Below, piece by piece: positions 1,017 to 12,881 of a stretch of DNA of 14,013 nt; the first letter of the stretch is position 1; each line of letters opens with the position of its first letter. The stretch is from Promethearchaeota archaeon. GTDB lineage: Archaea > Asgardarchaeota > Lokiarchaeia > Sigynarchaeales > SOKP01. The notes below the pieces were generated by a model that was not told the DNA's origin, made no database searches, and was given only the letters and a program-made list of their open reading frames with translations. The DNA lies in the NCBI GenBank assembly GCA_004524425.1, contig SDNN01000058.1, positions 1 through 14,013 on the forward strand, written 5' to 3'. The translations under genes were made by a program, and so were the position numbers.

Positions 1017-2367
1017 ATGGCAGTAAAAGTAGCTTTTATGCAATGTTCTGATTGCTGGGGTTGCCATCAAAGCCTATTGAATGCACATTATTAGGGTTAA
1101 CCCTTTAAGTATAAATTTAGGCTTATTACCAGTACTCCCGGCATTGGATATTGTATATTGGCCAGCAGTCGTTGATTTCAAGCATGACTCATTGAAAGCC
1201 CGACCTAACGGTGATATATTAGTTGGATTCGTTGAGGGAAGTTTAAGAACGAACGAAGACGTGGAAAATGCAAAACTCATGCGGGAGAAATGTCAATTAA
1301 TAATCGCCTTTGGCAGTTGCTCCTGTTATGGGAATGTTCACGGACTAGCCAATCAGTGGGACATACAAAAGAGCATAGACAGAAAGTTCAAAGAAGTAGA
1401 AAGCATAGCTGATGAAAGCGGTGGAGAACCTAAGGAACACATGCCCGGTTTTGTTGATAAAATCGTACCATTAGATGAAGTTGTAAAGGTTGATGCGTAT
1501 ATTGCAGGATGTCCACCAAAACCTGAAGCCATTATAAGTGCTGTCCAGTTTCTGCTCGGACAAAAGCCATTCCCTATGAATGATTTATCCTTTTGTAATG
1601 ATTGTATTCTAAATAACGAAAATTGCCTATTAGAAAAAGGTATTATGTGCTTTGGGCCAATAACCAGTACTGGTTGTTCACTTAAATGCACTAACGAAGG
1701 TAAACCATGCGTGGGATGTTTTGGTCCTGCAAAAACTGTTTCTGCAAGAGTAGAAAAGCTGAAGAGCATGTCCGAAAACCTAGGTCAGATCAATTCTGGG
1801 AATAAAAAGAGCTTATATGAATTCTTGTCCTTATTCCTTAACGTGCCATTAATGGCCGGATTTGATCTTTCAGGAGATATTCTAAAACAAGTGAAGAAAA
1901 AGGGGTCACCACAGACTCCATTAGCAAACCTACCTCCTGATACTGAACAAATTGCTTCAAACTTATTACGCTTTCTAAGAGATACTCCTGACTTCCATGA
2001 AATTTCTAACGTATGCGATACTTGTCCAAGAATCAGAGGAAGGATGAGAATGGAGAAAGTGAAACGAGACTATGAAGGCCTTCCCAATCAAGAAGACTGT
2101 TTTATTGAACAAGGTTATTTATGCATGGGTCCAGTTACTAAGGCGGGATGTGGTGGTCTATGCCTCAAAGTCAATGCTCCTTGTACAGGCTGTTATGGTC
2201 AAACAGAATGGAATGTTGATCAAGCTTCCAGATATGCGGAAACTGTGATCAAGAATTTTAATGTGGGTTTATCAAAAGAAGAATTGCTTAGTCAAGTAAA
2301 AGATACGCTTGGAACCTTCGAGAAATTTACATTAGCATCTAATAAATCATATAGAGGAGGAGAATAA
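1017..2367 (+). CDS. mvhG: F420-non-reducing [NiFe] hydrogenase small subunit, interrupted by a 28-nt intron (join 1017..1086, 1115..2367)
   Basis: Electron-transfer subunit of a group 3 (Mvh/Vhu-type) hydrogenase, passing electrons from the NiFe site through iron-sulfur clusters to an Hdr-type partner. The real start is ATG 1017, which opens with the diagnostic 'CSDCWGCHQSLLNAH' (proximal-cluster C13/C16). In genomic frame this peptide ends at TAG 1092 after 25 codons, while the rest of the protein ('LGLLPVLPALDIVYWPAVVD' onward) lies in the +1-shifted frame. Removing 1087-1114 joins them as NAH-LGLLPVLP, the spacing expected for the family, and gives 440 residues. Further conserved cysteines are C92/C94 and C156 ('AGCPPKPE'). 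Two Cys-rich modules follow (residues 184-225 and 324-383), the second with 'CMGPVTKAGC' and 'PCTGCYG', so the protein is longer than the roughly 300 residues usual for MvhG. The stop is 4 bp before the large subunit. The ATG at 1081 that a gene caller would choose is not the start: it lies inside exon 1 in the wrong frame. Confidence 0.93.
1087..1114 (+). other. Predicted archaeal mRNA intron with bulge-helix-bulge splice sites
   Basis: The pre-mRNA can fold as follows. The outer stem is 1070-1076 with 1118-1124 (7 bp, AAGCCTA/TAGGCTT), then a TT bulge (1077-1078), then G1079-U1117 and A1080-U1116. Bulge 2 is AAA (1113-1115). The central helix is 1081-1084 with 1109-1112 (4 bp, one G-U). Bulge 1 is ACA (1085-1087). 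The inner helix is 1088-1090 with 1106-1108, then a small internal loop, then AGGG/CCCT (1093-1096 with 1101-1104) capped by TTAA. The tRNA splicing endonuclease cuts 3-nt bulges between nucleotides 2 and 3, here 1086/1087 and 1114/1115, and this excises exactly the 28 nt that protein homology says must go. Codon 24 (CAT) is rebuilt from C1086 and A1115-T1116. The intron carries in-frame TAG (1092-1094) and TAA (1098-1100). Confidence 0.88.
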
Positions 2368-2371
2368 AAAA

Positions 2372-3676
2372 ATGGTTAAGGAAATAGAAGTAGAACCCGT
2401 TACTCGGTTAGAAGGACATGGCGGATTAAGAGTGGTAATAGGGGACGATGGAAAGGTCAAAGATGCACAATTCAATATCACTTCCACGAGATTTTTTGAA
2501 AAATTTTGTGAAGGGCGATACTGCGAGCACGTGCCCCGCATCACCCCAAGAATCTGTGGCATTTGTCCCATACCCCATCATATCACGCCTACTAAGGCTG
2601 TCGAAGATGCATGGGGCGTGGAGATTCCCGAGCCCGCGCGCAAGCTGCGCCAGTTAATCATGAACGCCAAGCAATATAGTTCTCACCTGTTGCATTTTTA
2701 TGCATTAGCTGCACCCGATTTCTTATTAGGGCCGATGGCTGACCCTGCATTGAGAAACGTGGTGCATGTCATCAATAAGATGCCCGACGTGGGAGCAATG
2801 GCTTTAAAGATGATGGATTTTGGCCAGAAGCTTTGCGCGGAAATTGGTGGTAAATCAGTTCATCCCATTTCAGCTATTGTCGGCGGAATGAAAAAACCCA
2901 TGGATGAAGATGCGAGAGACAGGTTTCTCAAGCAAGTGGACGAACAGATTGAATTCACCAAGAAGACGGTTGACATAGGCATCAAGGTCACAGAAGATTA
3001 TTGGGACGTCGTGGCTAACGTAGGAGTCGTTCCTACTTATTATGTTGGGATGACCAAGAATGGCGTGCATGATATTTATGAAGGTGATATTCGCATCGTA
3101 ACTCCTGATGGTGACAAGATAGATTATGCACCCCAAAAATACTTGGACGCGTTAGGTGAACACATACCCGATCATTCTTATGCAACGCACATGTATTACA
3201 AGCCTGCTGGATATCCAGAGGGCATTTATCGTGCCAATTGCTTGGCAATGATCAATGCAGCGGATAAGATGGCCACGCCGTTGGCTGACGAGGCTTTAAA
3301 GACGTTTAGAGAGAAACTCGGTCAAGTCTCGCATCACACTTTCGCCTATCATTGGGCACGGTTAATCGAGACGGTGGAAGCAATAGAAATCATCAAGACT
3401 TTATTAGAAGATCCTGATATCTGCAATCCAGATTGCAAGACCTTGGATATTGAACCCAAGGAAGGTGAAGGGGTTGGCATAACTGAAGCACCGCGAGGTT
3501 TATTACTCTATAATATCTGGTCTGATGCGGAAGGGATTTGCAAGAAATTAAATCTCTTGGTTGCGACGAACCACAATATTGCAGGGATTGAGAAGTCACT
3601 GATGCATACGGCAAAGCAAGTGTTCGAAGACAAGGCTTTGGATGGATTAAAATTACCCGATCCATGGATAAAATAG
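2372..3676 (+). CDS. mvhA: F420-non-reducing [NiFe] hydrogenase large subunit, C-terminally truncated (split from VhuU)
   Basis: Catalytic subunit that carries the NiFe(CN)2CO site, 434 residues, cytoplasmic. The N-terminal L1 motif is present as 'RICGICPIPHH' with Ni/Fe ligands C62 and C65, preceded by the family signature 'VTRLEGHGG'. The C-terminal L2 motif (DPCxxCxxH) that provides the other two ligands is absent: the protein stops at 'KLPDPWIK', and the missing motif is encoded by the small selenocysteine gene 53 bp downstream. This matches the established VhuA/VhuU split of Methanococcus. A strong ribosome binding site (GAGGAGG, about 2354-2360) overlaps the end of the small-subunit gene, indicating translation as one operon. 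Codons near 2521-2640 are much richer in G+C (72 of 120 bases) than in neighbouring genes. Without the L2 motif it is inactive unless joined by the next product. Confidence 0.95.
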   Translation: MVKEIEVEPVTRLEGHGGLRVVIGDDGKVKDAQFNITSTRFFEKFCEGRYCEHVPRITPRICGICPIPHHITPTKAVEDAWGVEIPEPARKLRQLIMNAKQYSSHLLHFYALAAPDFLLGPMADPALRNVVHVINKMPDVGAMALKMMDFGQKLCAEIGGKSVHPISAIVGGMKKPMDEDARDRFLKQVDEQIEFTKKTVDIGIKVTEDYWDVVANVGVVPTYYVGMTKNGVHDIYEGDIRIVTPDGDKIDYAPQKYLDALGEHIPDHSYATHMYYKPAGYPEGIYRANCLAMINAADKMATPLADEALKTFREKLGQVSHHTFAYHWARLIETVEAIEIIKTLLEDPDICNPDCKTLDIEPKEGEGVGITEAPRGLLLYNIWSDAEGICKKLNLLVATNHNIAGIEKSLMHTAKQVFEDKALDGLKLPDPWIK

Positions 3677-3729: not shown

Positions 3730-3882
3730 ATGAGTGATGACATACCAGAAGGAGTAGTAAATCTCTTAGAAATGATAGTTCGCTGTTATGATTGCTGACT
3801 ATCATGCGCCGCCCACATCACAGTCGTTGATGAGGAAGGTAAGGAGATTTACTCCCGAAAGATGCACGTTGGCTTAGGATGA
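3730..3882 (+). CDS. vhuU: VhuU-like selenocysteine peptide: C-terminal part of the hydrogenase large subunit
   Basis: Tiny gene too short and too interrupted for ordinary ORF finding. From ATG 3730 (GGAG Shine-Dalgarno at 3713-3716) it reads 22 codons to an in-frame TGA (3796-3798). Read as Sec (U), this gives 'VRCYDCULSCAAH', i.e. the L2 motif RxYDPCxxCxxH with Sec in place of the first nickel-ligating Cys, as in VhuU of Methanococcus. C26 supplies the second ligand, and H29 marks where the maturation peptidase normally cuts; the following tail (ITVVDEEGKEIYSRKMHVGLG) would be the removable extension. The proline of the DPC motif is replaced by Cys. A second in-frame TGA (3880-3882) is taken here as the stop, giving 50 residues, because it lies inside a folded RNA element. 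If it too were recoded, the frame would continue 21 more codons to TAA 3946-3948. The gene sits between the large subunit and hdrC. Confidence 0.9.
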
Positions 3883-3939
3883 ATGTCCAATGAAAATATT
3901 AGATTGGACATAACTGCCCACGCAAGGGTTAAAGCCAAT
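3868..3939 (+). promoter_or_regulatory. Three-way-junction RNA over the vhuU 3' end; SECIS candidate
   Basis: The outer stem is 3868-3875 with 3932-3939 (8 bp, one G-U). Hairpin 1 is 3883-3891 with 3903-3911 (9 perfect bp, 11-nt loop). Hairpin 2 is 3917-3919 with 3926-3928, extended by TAA/TTA (3911-3913 with 3929-3931) around a 3-nt bulge. The only free strand in the junction is AGGATGA, which contains the second TGA. At the top of hairpin 1, AUGA (3890-3893) faces AGAU (3901-3904), which can form tandem G-A pairs like the SECIS core quartet, although the long upper helix of a eukaryotic SECIS is missing. Selenoprotein mRNAs of archaea usually carry their SECIS in a UTR, and Lokiarchaeota have eukaryote-like ones. 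The folding is seen in the sequence; the SECIS role is inferred. Confidence 0.5.
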
Positions 3940-3990
3940 AAATACTAATAAAAAAATTGAATTGGAAAAAACAAAAAAAGTGAAAAGATA

Positions 3991-6224: not shown

Positions 6225-6467
6225 ATGTGCCTTGCAATTCCCGGGAAAATTCTCAGCATTGAAGGAAATAAAGCATTAGTAGATTTTGATGGCATCAAAC
6301 AAGATATCATCATTGCATTAATCCAAGATCCCGTGGTAGGCAAGTATGTTATTGTTCACGCTGGATATGCGATTGAACAAATAAATGAATCAGAAGCTTT
6401 AGAAGCTATAAATCAATGGAAAGAAATAGCAGAAGAACAAGATCTCGATCTCTCTGAAATATTATAG
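6225..6467 (+). CDS. hypC: HypC/HupF-family hydrogenase maturation chaperone
   Basis: 80 residues, starting with the invariant 'MCLAIPGKI' of HypC, whose Cys2 (after Met removal the N-terminal thiol) helps carry the Fe(CN)2CO unit with HypD and docks to the immature large subunit. The following 'ALVDFDGIKQDI' and 'VGKYVIVHAGYAIEQI' strands fit the OB-fold of the family. The acidic C-terminal tail (EEQDLDLSEIL) is usual. The start is fixed by the need for MC at the N-terminus. A weak TATA-like CTATATTA near 6177-6184 would give a leader of about 20 nt. Its last 6 bp overlap the end of the convergent cooC-like gene. Together with hypD and the structural genes it marks this as a hydrogenase maturation locus. 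Confidence 0.97.
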   Translation: MCLAIPGKILSIEGNKALVDFDGIKQDIIIALIQDPVVGKYVIVHAGYAIEQINESEALEAINQWKEIAEEQDLDLSEIL

Positions 6468-7274
6468 GTCAAAAAGCTCTTTTTTTAATCTCTTTAATTT
6501 CTCATAAAGTTCTTTAATTGATTCCATTGCTTTTGAATTGGGATTATAATCAATTGGAGCTGTACCCTCTAAGTCTGCATTGATTATTTCTGGATCATAT
6601 GGTATGGTGTGGTATAGTGGAACTTCCCAATTCTCGATGGTCCTATATATCACGTCTATTTGAGATTCATCGTAGATTTTGTTTGCTACTAAAAATACGT
6701 TGATGACTCCCAATCGTTTTGATAGTTTAATGATTTTAGAACATAGATCTAATGATTTTTGAGAAGGTTCGGTGATCACTAACATGACATCAATACCTTT
6801 TGCGGTACCGCGTCCCAAATGCTCTAATCCCGCTTCAAAATCAACGATTAAAACCTCATCCCTTTTTACGAATAAGTTATATACCAAGGTTCTAATTAAG
6901 GCGTTTTCAGGACAAAGGCATCCCGATGAGGGATTTTGGATTGTACCCAGCACCAATAGTTGTAACCCATTCGGACCAGGTACCTTGAATCGATCGGGGA
7001 TATCTGATACTTCTGGATTAATGTTATATATTCCTGCACCTTCACCAGCAACATTGGTGCGCTCATCAATTAATTTCTTCATTTCAGATATGGGAACTAT
7101 ATTAGATTTAACATCCTCATCGATTCCGAGCGTGTAACTTAAGTTCATAGCAGAGTCATTATCAATGGCTAAAACATTGAAGCCATCCTCAGCAAATAGT
7201 CTAGCTAATGTTCCCGCCATAAGTGTTTTTCCAACACCTCCTTTTCCTGACACAGCGATTTTAACAATAATCAC
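6462..7274 (-). CDS. cooC: CooC-like MinD/ParA-family ATPase, probable nickel-insertion factor
   Basis: 270 residues with a deviant Walker A P-loop 'GKGGVGKT' (residues 10-17) including the signature lysine K11, so a dimerising SIMIBI-class ATPase. 'VDFEAGLEHLGRGT' corresponds to the switch/Walker B region, and the 'GCLCPEN' motif (C119-x-C121) matches the CxC by which CooC dimers bind nickel or zinc. CooC delivers nickel to carbon monoxide dehydrogenase; close paralogues sit near other nickel enzymes, so here it may serve a CODH/acetyl-CoA synthase encoded elsewhere or, by context, the hydrogenase. Start is GTG 7274, placed immediately before the P-loop strand; a TATA box at 7311-7316 predicts a leader of only about 10-15 nt. 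The C-terminal end overlaps hypC tail to tail by 6 bp. Confidence 0.9.
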   Translation of the reverse strand: MIIVKIAVSGKGGVGKTLMAGTLARLFAEDGFNVLAIDNDSAMNLSYTLGIDEDVKSNIVPISEMKKLIDERTNVAGEGAGIYNINPEVSDIPDRFKVPGPNGLQLLVLGTIQNPSSGCLCPENALIRTLVYNLFVKRDEVLIVDFEAGLEHLGRGTAKGIDVMLVITEPSQKSLDLCSKIIKLSKRLGVINVFLVANKIYDESQIDVIYRTIENWEVPLYHTIPYDPEIINADLEGTAPIDYNPNSKAMESIKELYEKLKRLKKELFDL

Positions 7275-7564: not shown

Positions 7565-7852
7565 TCATAAAGGTTGAAGCAAGTCTTCTTCTGGATCCTC
7601 TTTTCTCATCTTCTGTATTCTTTTAGTAATTTTCATCATTTCTTTGAACAATCGTTCGTTTTCTTCATTATCCCTTGTGATTATTAATTTTTCATTCAAT
7701 TTTTTGAGCTTCATGGTAAGATCTAAAAATTCCTGAGGCGGATCATCACGATAATGATATATTTTTCTTCCATCCTCATGTATTTTTATGAAAATCCATT
7801 TCTTAGTTTCATCATCCCAATTCCATCTATTAGGAGTAAGTTTCCTTGACAT
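7565..7852 (-). CDS. Small RWNW-motif protein, copy 1 (unknown function)
   Basis: 95 residues, not recognised as a known family. The N-terminal half has 'MSRKLTPNRWNW' followed by 'KKWIFIK' and 'GRKIYHY', which looks like a small aromatic beta-sheet, then 'DDPP' and a Lys/Glu-rich helical half (about residues 42-85), probably one or two amphipathic helices. The tail EDPEEDLL is acidic. It is a tandem paralogue of the next gene, to which about 40 of 87 aligned positions are identical without gaps. Start ATG 7852 is supported by alignment with the paralogue; TTTAAA around 7874-7879 on the minus strand lies about 25 nt upstream, suggesting a leaderless transcript. No signal peptide or membrane segment; a cytosolic protein or nucleic-acid binder is possible but unproven. 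Confidence 0.75.
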   Translation of the reverse strand: MSRKLTPNRWNWDDETKKWIFIKIHEDGRKIYHYRDDPPQEFLDLTMKLKKLNEKLIITRDNEENERLFKEMMKITKRIQKMRKEDPEEDLLQPL

Positions 7853-8045: not shown

Positions 8046-8309
8046 TTAACCCTCGTGATACTTCATGTTTTGCATTTTTTTGGAAATTTGCATCAATTTT
8101 TCAAATAATTTTCTATTTTCTCGGGGGTCATCTGTATTCATTAATTTATCATTAACTTTCTTAATTTGCATGGTTAGATCGATAAAAATTTTAGGTGGCT
8201 CAAGTTTATATGTATAAATTCTCTTTCCATTTTCATCTTTGGTCACAAATACCCACTTGCCAGCCTTCTCGGACCAGTTCCATCTGTCTAAAGTGTATTT
8301 TCTTGACAT
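8046..8309 (-). CDS. Small RWNW-motif protein, copy 2 (unknown function)
   Basis: 87 residues, paralogous to the gene just downstream of it. Shared blocks are 'MSRK-T--RWNW', 'KW-F', 'G--IY-Y--PP--F-DLTM', 'KK-N-KL' and a C-terminal helix with 'LF---M-I-K--Q-M'. It lacks the acidic tail of copy 1 and ends in KYHEG. The ungapped alignment over the full length supports both starts and shows that both are under selection as proteins. A TTTAAA element near 8350-8355 on the minus strand lies about 40 nt upstream of the ATG. The function is unknown; the aromatic N-terminal half plus a basic helical half could suit nucleic-acid or protein binding. Confidence 0.75.
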   Translation of the reverse strand: MSRKYTLDRWNWSEKAGKWVFVTKDENGKRIYTYKLEPPKIFIDLTMQIKKVNDKLMNTDDPRENRKLFEKLMQISKKMQNMKYHEG

Positions 8310-10712: not shown

Positions 10713-12881
10713 ATGAAAAAGAATAGCGATATATCATACTATTTTAATCCGAAATCACTTGCAATAATTGGTGCAAGTGCTACTGAAGGAAAGGTGGGTA
10801 ATACTGTTCTTAAAAACGTTATAGAATCAGGTTATGAAGGTAAAATTTATCCGATTAATCCTAAATCAGAAGAAATTTTAGGGCATAAATCATATAAATC
10901 CATATTAGAAGTGAATGATGAAATCGAGGTTGCGGTTTTCGTAATCCCTGCTGATAAAGTCGTTCCCATAGCAGAAGACTGCGGCAAAAAGGGGGTTAAA
11001 GGTTTGATTGTAATCTCAGCGGGATTTAAAGAAATTGGTGGCGAAGGAATACAACGAGAAGAAGAACTCGTTAAAATTGGTAAAAAACATAACATGAGAA
11101 TATTAGGACCAAATTGTCTTGGAATAATCGGCCTGCATTATAATTGTTCATTTGCCGCCGATACCCCCAAGAAAGGAAATATTGCCATGATTTCACAATC
11201 CGGAGCCATGTTAACAGGTATGATGGATTATTCCATGACCCAACCATTCGGATTTTCGGTAAATATTAGCCTAGGAAATAAGGCGGATTTAGGGGCAGTT
11301 GATTTCATCGAATATCTTGCTAATGATGAGGAAACCAAAGTAATTTTATGTTATTTAGAAAGCATAAAAGATGGAGATCGATTTCTTGAAGTTCTACCCA
11401 AGGCAACGAGGAAAAAACCTATAATTATTTTAAAATCGGGAGTTAGTGAAGCAGGAGCTAGAGCAGCATCAAGTCATACGGGAGCATTAGCAGGCTCTGA
11501 TACTGCATATGATTTGGCTTTTAATAAATGTGGGGTCATAAGGGCAATAACTATTGAGGATTTATTTGATTATGGTGAAATTTTTCTTTATCAACCCATC
11601 CCCTCAAAAAATTCATTTGCTATCATCACAAATGCAGGCGGCCCGGGAATTGTGGCTACTGATGCTTTTGAAAGAGAAGGTTTAAAATTTGCACAGTTTT
11701 CCGAAAATATTCTTCATAAACTCAGAGACAATTTACCGTTAGAAGCAGCAATTTTTAATCCTGTTGATATCGTTGGTGATGCTAGTCCACAAAGGTATGA
11801 ATTTGCTTTAGAAACGATTTTTGGTATTAACAGGAAAGTAAATGATTCAAAAGAGAATTCTAATGAAATAACGACGTATGGTTCGTTGATAATCGTGACT
11901 CCACAAGCTCAAACGAAACCAACTGAAGTTGCTAAATTAATTCATCAAATAAGTTCAAAAAATTTAAGAGAGAAACCCATTGTGTGTTCATTTTTAGGAG
12001 AGAAATCAACGGCGGAAGGGAGAAAGTATCTAAAAAGCAATCACATTCCTTGTTATCATTTTCCAGATAGGGCTGCCGTGTCTCTCAAAAAGCTCTTGCT
12101 ACGAACTGAATTTTTGAAATCGACGCCTTTGGATGAAGTATCCATACCTCAATTTGATGTAGATAAGAAACGCGTAAGCGAAATAATTGAGGAAGTTCGA
12201 AAAGATGACAGAACAGTTCTTTTAAGTCATGAAACTAGTGAGATTTTTGAATGTTATGGAATAAAATCCCCTGCTTCTCGGTTAGCTAGAACCCCTAGGG
12301 AAGCCATGAACATTCAAGAGAAAATCGGAAAAGCGGTCATGAAAATTGTGAGCCCTCAGATAATCCATAAGACAGATGTTGGGGGGATCGCTTTAGATAT
12401 TAAAACTCCTGAAGAAGCTTTTGAAGCATTTACCCAAATTGTTGATAATGCTAAAAAATTCGGCCCTTCTAATGCGAAAATTTACGGGGTCGAAGTGCAA
12501 GAAATGATTGACACGAAAAAGCAAGAAAAAGTCAATGAATTAATCATAGGAATGTCTAAAGATCCCCAGTTCGGGCCCATGTTAATGATAGGCATGGGGG
12601 GTATATATGCCAATTTTCTTAAGGATGTTACTTTTTCATTGGCGTATAAATTTACAGAAAATGATGCTAGAAATATGCTTCAAAAGACTAAAGTGTATAG
12701 TTTACTTGAGGGCGTAAGAGGAGAGAAAAGATCTGATATAGAAGCCGTGATTGAGGTATTATTAAGACTTTCTCAATTAGTTAATGATTTTCCAGAAATT
12801 GTCGAATTAGATATAAATCCATTATTATCTTTTATTAAAAGTTATAGTGCTGTGGATATTAAAATCACCATCACCCGTTAG
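10713..12881 (+). CDS. Acetate/acyl-CoA synthetase (ADP-forming), fused alpha-beta
   Basis: 722 residues, the single-chain form of ADP-forming acyl-CoA synthetase, which converts acyl-CoA + ADP + Pi to acid + CoA + ATP and conserves energy from fermentation in many anaerobic archaea. Order of domains: CoA-binding Rossmann domain ('SLAIIGASATEGKVGNTVLKN' at about 15-35, 'YPINPK'), succinyl-CoA-ligase-like domains with 'GPNCLGI', 'AMISQSGAM' and the phosphorylated histidine H255 in 'SSHTGALAGSD', then the ATP-grasp beta part from about residue 495 ('AVMKIVSPQIIHKTDVGGI', 'MLMIGMGGIYANFLKDV', 'ELDINPLL'). All key motifs are present and the length is normal. Preferred acyl substrate (acetyl, aryl or branched) cannot be read from sequence. 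TTTAAAAG at 10690-10697 lies about 20 nt before ATG 10713, suggesting a leaderless start. The next gene is codirectional and probably related in function. Confidence 0.95.
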   Translation: MKKNSDISYYFNPKSLAIIGASATEGKVGNTVLKNVIESGYEGKIYPINPKSEEILGHKSYKSILEVNDEIEVAVFVIPADKVVPIAEDCGKKGVKGLIVISAGFKEIGGEGIQREEELVKIGKKHNMRILGPNCLGIIGLHYNCSFAADTPKKGNIAMISQSGAMLTGMMDYSMTQPFGFSVNISLGNKADLGAVDFIEYLANDEETKVILCYLESIKDGDRFLEVLPKATRKKPIIILKSGVSEAGARAASSHTGALAGSDTAYDLAFNKCGVIRAITIEDLFDYGEIFLYQPIPSKNSFAIITNAGGPGIVATDAFEREGLKFAQFSENILHKLRDNLPLEAAIFNPVDIVGDASPQRYEFALETIFGINRKVNDSKENSNEITTYGSLIIVTPQAQTKPTEVAKLIHQISSKNLREKPIVCSFLGEKSTAEGRKYLKSNHIPCYHFPDRAAVSLKKLLLRTEFLKSTPLDEVSIPQFDVDKKRVSEIIEEVRKDDRTVLLSHETSEIFECYGIKSPASRLARTPREAMNIQEKIGKAVMKIVSPQIIHKTDVGGIALDIKTPEEAFEAFTQIVDNAKKFGPSNAKIYGVEVQEMIDTKKQEKVNELIIGMSKDPQFGPMLMIGMGGIYANFLKDVTFSLAYKFTENDARNMLQKTKVYSLLEGVRGEKRSDIEAVIEVLLRLSQLVNDFPEIVELDINPLLSFIKSYSAVDIKITITR

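Follow-up and report, generated by a model that had tools for sequence, protein, structure and literature searches.

A [NiFe]-hydrogenase small-subunit gene of a Promethearchaeota archaeon is interrupted by 28 nt (positions 1087-1114 of the window, by which we mean the whole 14,013-nt stretch analysed, contig SDNN01000058.1), and the best explanation is that these nucleotides constitute a pre-mRNA intron with a relaxed, HBh'-like bulge-helix-bulge (BHB) motif, which would be cut by the splicing endonuclease EndA and sealed by RtcB. We put the probability of this reading, in which splicing is predicted from sequence, at about 0.86. The interpretation had been proposed in an earlier note on this DNA, and it is supported here by homologues that are gap-free at the junction, by a second insert in another genome, by the register between fold and splice point, and by EndA and RtcB in five of five relatives.

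An interrupted hydrogenase gene

The gene (1017-2367, plus strand) encodes a vhuG/mvhG-type small subunit with a match to the Oxidored_q6 domain, and its best relative of solved structure is the MvhG chain 5odc_E (E-value 1.1e-56), with which it aligns from residue 3. The frame from 1017 reads MAVKVAFMQCSDCWGCHQSLLNAHY*G* (asterisks for stops), i.e. the conserved N-terminus hits a TAG and a TAA; the vhuG frame breaks after codon 23 plus one base, and the protein continues 28 nt further on, in the frame of 1117. Joining 1017-1086 to 1115-2367 yields a single open frame of 440 amino acids, which shares 85% identity along its entire length with P0002, the best homologue besides the window itself. 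The translations and the joined frame confirm the earlier claim that exactly 28 nt with two stops separate the N-terminus from the remainder of the protein, and the proposal that the predicted cuts rebuild codon H24 holds as well, as removal of 1087-1114 restores the conserved reading frame without interruption. Exon 1 (1017-1086) thus comprises codons 1-23 and the first base of codon 24, including the N-terminal CxxC motif DCWGCH, as indicated by its translation, by gap-free homologues and by the 5odc_E alignment; the predicted intron (1087-1114), with TAG and TAA in the exon 1 frame, is missing from intronless homologues; and exon 2 (1115-2367) encodes the remainder of the small subunit with the Oxidored_q6 domain, as judged from translation, domain match and homologues. 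The insert shows no catalytic core of a group I or group II intron, being just 28 nt long, and at gathering scores the window has no Rfam match. The spliced frames of the window and of two related loci (L003 and L001) are constrained at the protein level, with dN of 0.13-0.16 and amino acid identity exceeding nucleotide identity; dS was not estimable.

Downstream of vhuG lie a vhuA/mvhA-like large-subunit gene (2372-3676, plus strand; PF00374, NiFeSe_Hases), which is the next gene of the cluster, a small selenoprotein gene (3730-3882, plus strand) recognized from its sequence and from related loci, with an in-frame UGA at 3796-3798 and a probable stop at 3880-3882, and then genes with Fer4 and CCG domains. 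The latter presumably resemble HdrC and HdrB, and we use the Hdr names in this sense; likewise, vhuU is the name that we assume for the selenoprotein gene. VhuU-type selenoproteins of Asgard archaea are named in the accessible part of PMC11227280. The vhuU-like ORF (3730-3948) has its UGA in the context CYDC-U-LSCAAH; it is flanked by the large-subunit gene on one side and the HdrC-like gene on the other. The second UGA (3880-3882) is probably the real stop, because in 7 of the 19 related loci with a match the conserved sequence that follows it has left the reading frame, which would suit an RNA element at the 3' end, for instance a SECIS, better than a protein. The vhuU-like gene of L001 has one further stop between both UGAs. 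Elsewhere in the window, on the minus strand, there are two adjacent small ORFs of one family (7565-7852 and 8046-8309; MSRKxTxxRWNW...) and, near the hydrogenase cluster, a ParA/NifH-like ATPase gene (6462-7274). A plus-strand ORF near the cluster (10713-12881), judged by sequence, presumably resembles an ADP-forming acyl-CoA synthetase.

The junction in homologues and a second insert

The junction was surveyed in 173 homologue records, comprising the best 120 of 859 matches and further listed matches. Exactly 13 residues separate CxGCH from LPxLD in 159 of them. The remaining 14 include the window's own protein (P0001) together with P0066, P0094 and P0096, all of which are without the N-terminal part, seven records with a variant spelling of the motif that are gap-free by eye, two (P0138 and P0140) that begin within the motif, and one (P0156) without the CxGCH stretch. 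The alignment of homologues at the NAH-LGLLP run, which the earlier note had named as a check, therefore shows a gapless junction, and a full N-terminus joined in frame to extra residues was found in none of the 173 records. The database copies of intron-bearing vhuG represented by P0001, P0096 and P0066 begin within the intron or shortly after it, with P0001 and P0096 starting from an ATG of exon 1 read in another frame; because of these starts, the predicted proteins are without the N-terminal CxxC motif.

A second insert was found at the same junction in locus L003 (SDNW01000074.1, genome G003), where it is 30 nt long and contains a TAA. The spliced protein of L003 is 81% identical to that of the window, and the gene was found again in the G003 genome, with one TAA inside. 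An insert of 28 nt changes the reading frame whereas one of 30 nt preserves it, so that neither frameshifting nor read-through could by itself account for both genes. Further candidate carriers are P0096, P0066 and P0094, whose introns are read from the proteins alone. P0096 is 78% identical to the spliced protein of the window, and its N-terminus reads MHIIRVFPLSIN, versus MHIIRVNPLSIN in the window ORF; eight of the nine codons that lie wholly within the intron read alike in both. For the sole difference (Asn to Phe), changes at two loop bases suffice, and the stem is pairable with either Phe codon. An insert of the same position and structure thus recurs in L003, and the proteins P0096 and P0066 point to further cases. 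P0096 represents 3 and P0066 38 database sequences, and P0001 is a single one. P0094 may carry an L003-like intron; its gene lies on a contig of 1476 bases and could be cut.

RNA fold and splice-point register

In the minimum free energy (MFE) folds of 63-, 76- and 144-nt stretches around the window insert, the plus-strand transcript contains a 7-bp outer stem between exon 1 (1070-1076) and exon 2 (1118-1124), a central 4-bp helix between exon 1 (1081-1084) and the 3' end of the intron (1109-1112), a 5' bulge ACA (1085-1087) with the predicted cut at 1086/1087, and an inner hairpin (1088-1108) formed by 1088-1090/1106-1108 and 1093-1096/1101-1104 with the loop 1097-1100. The central helix pairs with a probability of 0.57-0.64. 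The bulge-helix-bulge drawn in the earlier note stands as far as its stems, ACA bulge and hairpin are concerned, and fails in one element: the AAA at the 3' splice site (1113-1115, predicted cut 1114/1115) is no free-standing 3-nt bulge and belongs, in the best fold, to a 4x5 internal loop (1077-1080/1113-1117). The strict two-bulge form lies 2.9 kcal/mol higher, and its two extra pairs have a probability of 0.02. The modelled motif is accordingly a relaxed one, with a clean 5' bulge and an internal loop on the 3' side, and resembles the HBh' class. As a whole, the stretches fold only modestly better than their shuffles (z-scores of -1.07, -2.36 and -2.53 for 76, 63 and 144 nt, respectively).

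The MFE fold of the 63-nt stretch of L003 has the architecture of the window, i.e. an exon-exon stem of 6-7 bp, an internal loop, and an exon 1-intron helix of 3-4 bp, and the two folds have in common the 3-nt ACA bulge and, beyond it, 3 bp that are separated from a hairpin of 4-5 bp by a mismatch or small internal loop. The two introns align poorly; the inner hairpins differ (AGGG-UUAA-CCCU in the window vs GGAAA-AAAUA-UUUCC in L003, in the minimal stretches), and the central helix has a G.U in the window and a G-C in L003. In L003, the two extra pairs of the strict form cost 3.6 kcal/mol. For its 78-nt stretch a different fold is preferred (-15.1), which we count against the intron reading, as we do the internal loop where a clean 3' bulge would be expected, the failed control described below and the rarity of the insert.

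The agreement between fold and splice point was assessed with a register criterion, which demands an exon-intron helix of at least 3 bp, a 3-nt bulge cut after its second base, an adjoining inner helix and an unpaired 3' site. The splice point was taken from the protein, which leaves four equivalent registers for the window and three for L003, and flanking contexts of 20/14, 30/30 and 70/46 bases were used. Both the window and L003 are in register in all three contexts, the central helix and the ACA bulge of the window included. With dinucleotide-shuffled introns the register arose in 0 of 5000, 1 of 5000 and 0 of 1500 cases for the window (1 of 11500 in sum) and in 0 of 5000, 0 of 5000 and 0 of 1500 for L003 (0 of 11500), and shuffling the whole stretches gave 1 of 11500 and 0 of 11500, respectively. 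The positive control failed: none of four G003 tRNA introns called by ARAGORN was in register, in a control that was even looser, dispensing with the inner helix and allowing shifts of 3 nt, and for which the ARAGORN borders may be wrong. Within the analysed part of G003, ARAGORN called introns in 5 of 12 tRNA genes.

Splicing enzymes and proposed mechanism

EndA is present in all five relatives searched, the genome of L003 included, with two EndA genes in four of them, and RtcB was likewise found in all five, again including that genome. In G003, one EndA subunit is closest to the Aeropyrum pernix EndA (3p1z_B), which it matches at a His that is Ala in 3ajv_B; the other carries a Ser where 1a79 has the aligned His, and the residue thus replaced is presumably the catalytic His. 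A loop in crenarchaeal EndA gives these enzymes a broad specificity. According to the accessible text of PMC6379350, (alpha-beta)2 and epsilon2 endonucleases cut relaxed motifs, the (alpha-beta)2 enzyme of M. kandleri being narrower and thus an exception.

In the proposed mechanism, the vhuG transcript would fold by pairing of 1081-1084 in exon 1 with the intron's 3' end and of 1070-1076 in exon 1 with 1118-1124 in exon 2; a two-subunit EndA would cut at 1086/1087 and 1114/1115; and RtcB would join the exons, thereby rebuilding His24, with the release of 28 nt. The product would be one small subunit of 440 amino acids that keeps the N-terminal CxxC motif and reads MAVKVAFMQCSDCWGCH joined to LGLLP. 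Cleavage and ligation of the vhuG transcript, the action of EndA as a two-subunit enzyme in this case, and the presence of EndA and RtcB in the organism of the window itself are inferred.

Alternative explanations

The features of the two inserts also bear on programmed translational bypassing, in which the insert would be kept in the mRNA and the ribosome would leave the His codon and land 28 or 30 nt further on. Precedents for bypassing are gene 60 of phage T4 and short hairpin-forming inserts in certain yeast mitochondria, and the inserts described here are likewise small (28-30 nt) and hairpin-bearing; moreover, a hop would suit both lengths. However, matching take-off and landing codons are typical of bypass elements, whereas the codon before the insert is CAT and that before the resumed frame is AAT, a mismatch present in both genes. 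A hop would also have no need of the exon 1-intron helix and the exon 1-exon 2 stem, which are kept in both genes, nor would it account for a splice point placed where EndA would cut. EndA and RtcB are, moreover, present in the relatives searched. We consider bypassing very improbable, and the same low odds apply to the possibility that the gene is disabled, by a frameshift or an assembly error, and that a full-length small subunit is never made. The window variant is indeed represented in the protein database by one sequence only (P0001), but two assemblies have different inserts with the same fold at precisely this junction, several database sequences stand behind each of P0096 and P0066, the rest of the gene is open and constrained, and the large-subunit gene downstream is open.

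Slighter still is the chance that translation starts internally, at the ATG at 1081, and runs on through exon 2 to yield a working, N-terminally shortened subunit. An ORF of 428 amino acids does begin at this ATG, and P0096 shares the start; nevertheless, such a protein would be without DCWGCH, the CxxC motif that the match to MvhG (5odc_E) includes and that we take to be a ligand of the proximal Fe-S cluster. Nor does this explanation carry over to L003, because the same ATG there meets a TGA in the insert.

Distribution and evolutionary history

The search with the window small subunit returned 24 genome loci, all from Lokiarchaeota or Lokiarchaeia MAGs, which suggests that the contig of the window is itself Lokiarchaeia-like; the junction is gapless in 23 of them, and the insert is present in L003 only. 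Among the matches listed in a search of 227 Asgard genomes, 48 genomes contain an orthologue at 64% identity or higher, a count that takes two fragments of one genome as a single entry, and a single one of these, G003, has an insert at the junction. The judgement was made by alignment for 30 of the 48, and for the other 18 by a single match starting at residue 11 or earlier plus the stop count; G098, which belongs to the latter, has one TGA, probably at residue 438 as in L023. The intron is thus not a general feature of the small-subunit family.

In a tree of exon 2 (34 rows, P0037 having been dropped by trimming), the four well-evidenced carriers, i.e. the window, L003, P0066 and P0096, need three changes, which are forced by well-supported branches, and P0094 is sister to L003 and P0066. 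A grouping of the window with P0096 was rejected (AU p 0.0044), and one of all five candidate rows including P0094 was rejected more strongly; the groupings were chosen for testing after a quick 73-row tree that showed the same picture. Nearly identical introns (window and, by protein, P0096) therefore occur in genes that are not nearest kin, and transfer or repeated loss has to be invoked. The intron could have spread by transfer or gene conversion, or it could be old, lost repeatedly and conserved to an unusual degree. A more speculative idea, to which we give less than even odds, is that it represents a miniature BHB element of Asgard archaea that is mobile or passed on horizontally, and that may enter one fixed site by reverse splicing or move through recombination between gene copies with and without the intron; it is suggested by a like element in the window and P0096, a diverged 30-nt form in a third clade, and intronless genes between them.

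A hunt for further introns covered roughly 1.20 Mb of the 2.4-Mb genome G003 and 0.735 Mb of the 4.3-Mb genome G002. All ORFs that begin with ATG and reach a length of 100 amino acids were taken from these parts, from L001-L024 and L204, and from the window, and were searched against this very DNA, L025-L063 and L141 being left out as repeats; in G003, about 207 one-kilobase bins had a match of more than 40% identity from outside that genome. Among the 39 candidate places, only the inserts of the window and of L003 were accepted as intron-like. At L198 and L102, the seeming inserts appear to be cases of separate vs fused genes, which we assume to be HdrA- and MvhD-like: in G003, at L198 (4780-5100) and L102 (1-260), the two parts are separate and adjacent, and they are fused in some paralogues. 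The other places, judged from the rows and not one by one, were rejected as frameshifts, low-identity matches or noise from antisense ORFs. The window intron was found with up to three mismatches in none of the 227 genomes and exactly in none of 204 loci. In the family of G003, cbf5 scored above the cut-off in 60 of the 61 genomes drawn, in none with an internal stop and in two ending at contig ends; since cbf5 is stop-free in these 60 genomes, the vhuG intron is a case separate from that of cbf5.

Relation to known introns

The earlier note knew of no BHB intron in a hydrogenase, and our literature search, outside of which most subscription papers lie, is in agreement, as none of the titles and abstract openings that it listed mentions one in a hydrogenase or in an Asgard protein gene. 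The accessible part of PMC7714728, from 2020, gives the cbf5 mRNA as the only other BHB intron of such sort reported in archaea, and that of PMC2738675 states that in other protein genes introns had only been predicted. For Asgard genomes, the accessible text of PMC11291895 describes many tRNA introns and names no intron in a protein gene, and that of PMC3146512 deals with tRNA introns only.

The crenarchaeal cbf5 introns (16 to 44 bp, with motifs that are frequently relaxed and with some losses, according to the available text of PMC2738675) are the closest parallel. Like them, the vhuG intron is short, lies within the coding sequence, has a relaxed motif and is missing in some lineages; in both cases the frame is preserved at some lengths and shifted at others, and the cbf5 authors tie their intron to the hetero-oligomeric EndA. 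The vhuG intron differs in residing in a hydrogenase small subunit of Asgard archaea (Promethearchaeota), in its patchier distribution, and in the near-identity of introns from genes that are not nearest kin; moreover, cbf5 splicing was demonstrated by experiment, as that text describes, whereas vhuG splicing is a prediction. Archaeal tRNA introns, with BHB and relaxed hBH or HBh' motifs (PMC6379350, in its accessible part), are similar in size, motif geometry and predicted enzymes, but here the host RNA is an mRNA without a tRNA body. Another mRNA processed by the splicing endonuclease is the Haloferax HVO_1309 substrate of EndA described in the accessible text of PMC7714728; unlike in vhuG, the motif is in the 5' UTR and interrupts no reading frame. 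The 12-bp insertions of the SIRV1 rudivirus mentioned in PMC2738675 are likewise tiny inserts in archaeal coding genes that have been proposed to be introns; they differ in length, and according to that text their splicing is undemonstrated.

We judge the vhuG intron to represent a new gene and a new phylum for BHB introns in protein genes, with an odd distribution. If the interpretation is true, the enzymes of tRNA splicing would also splice a metabolic mRNA in Asgard archaea, the group nearest to eukaryotes. Gene callers would then truncate such intron-bearing genes, and it would become directly testable how introns of protein genes are gained, lost and spread among Asgard archaea.
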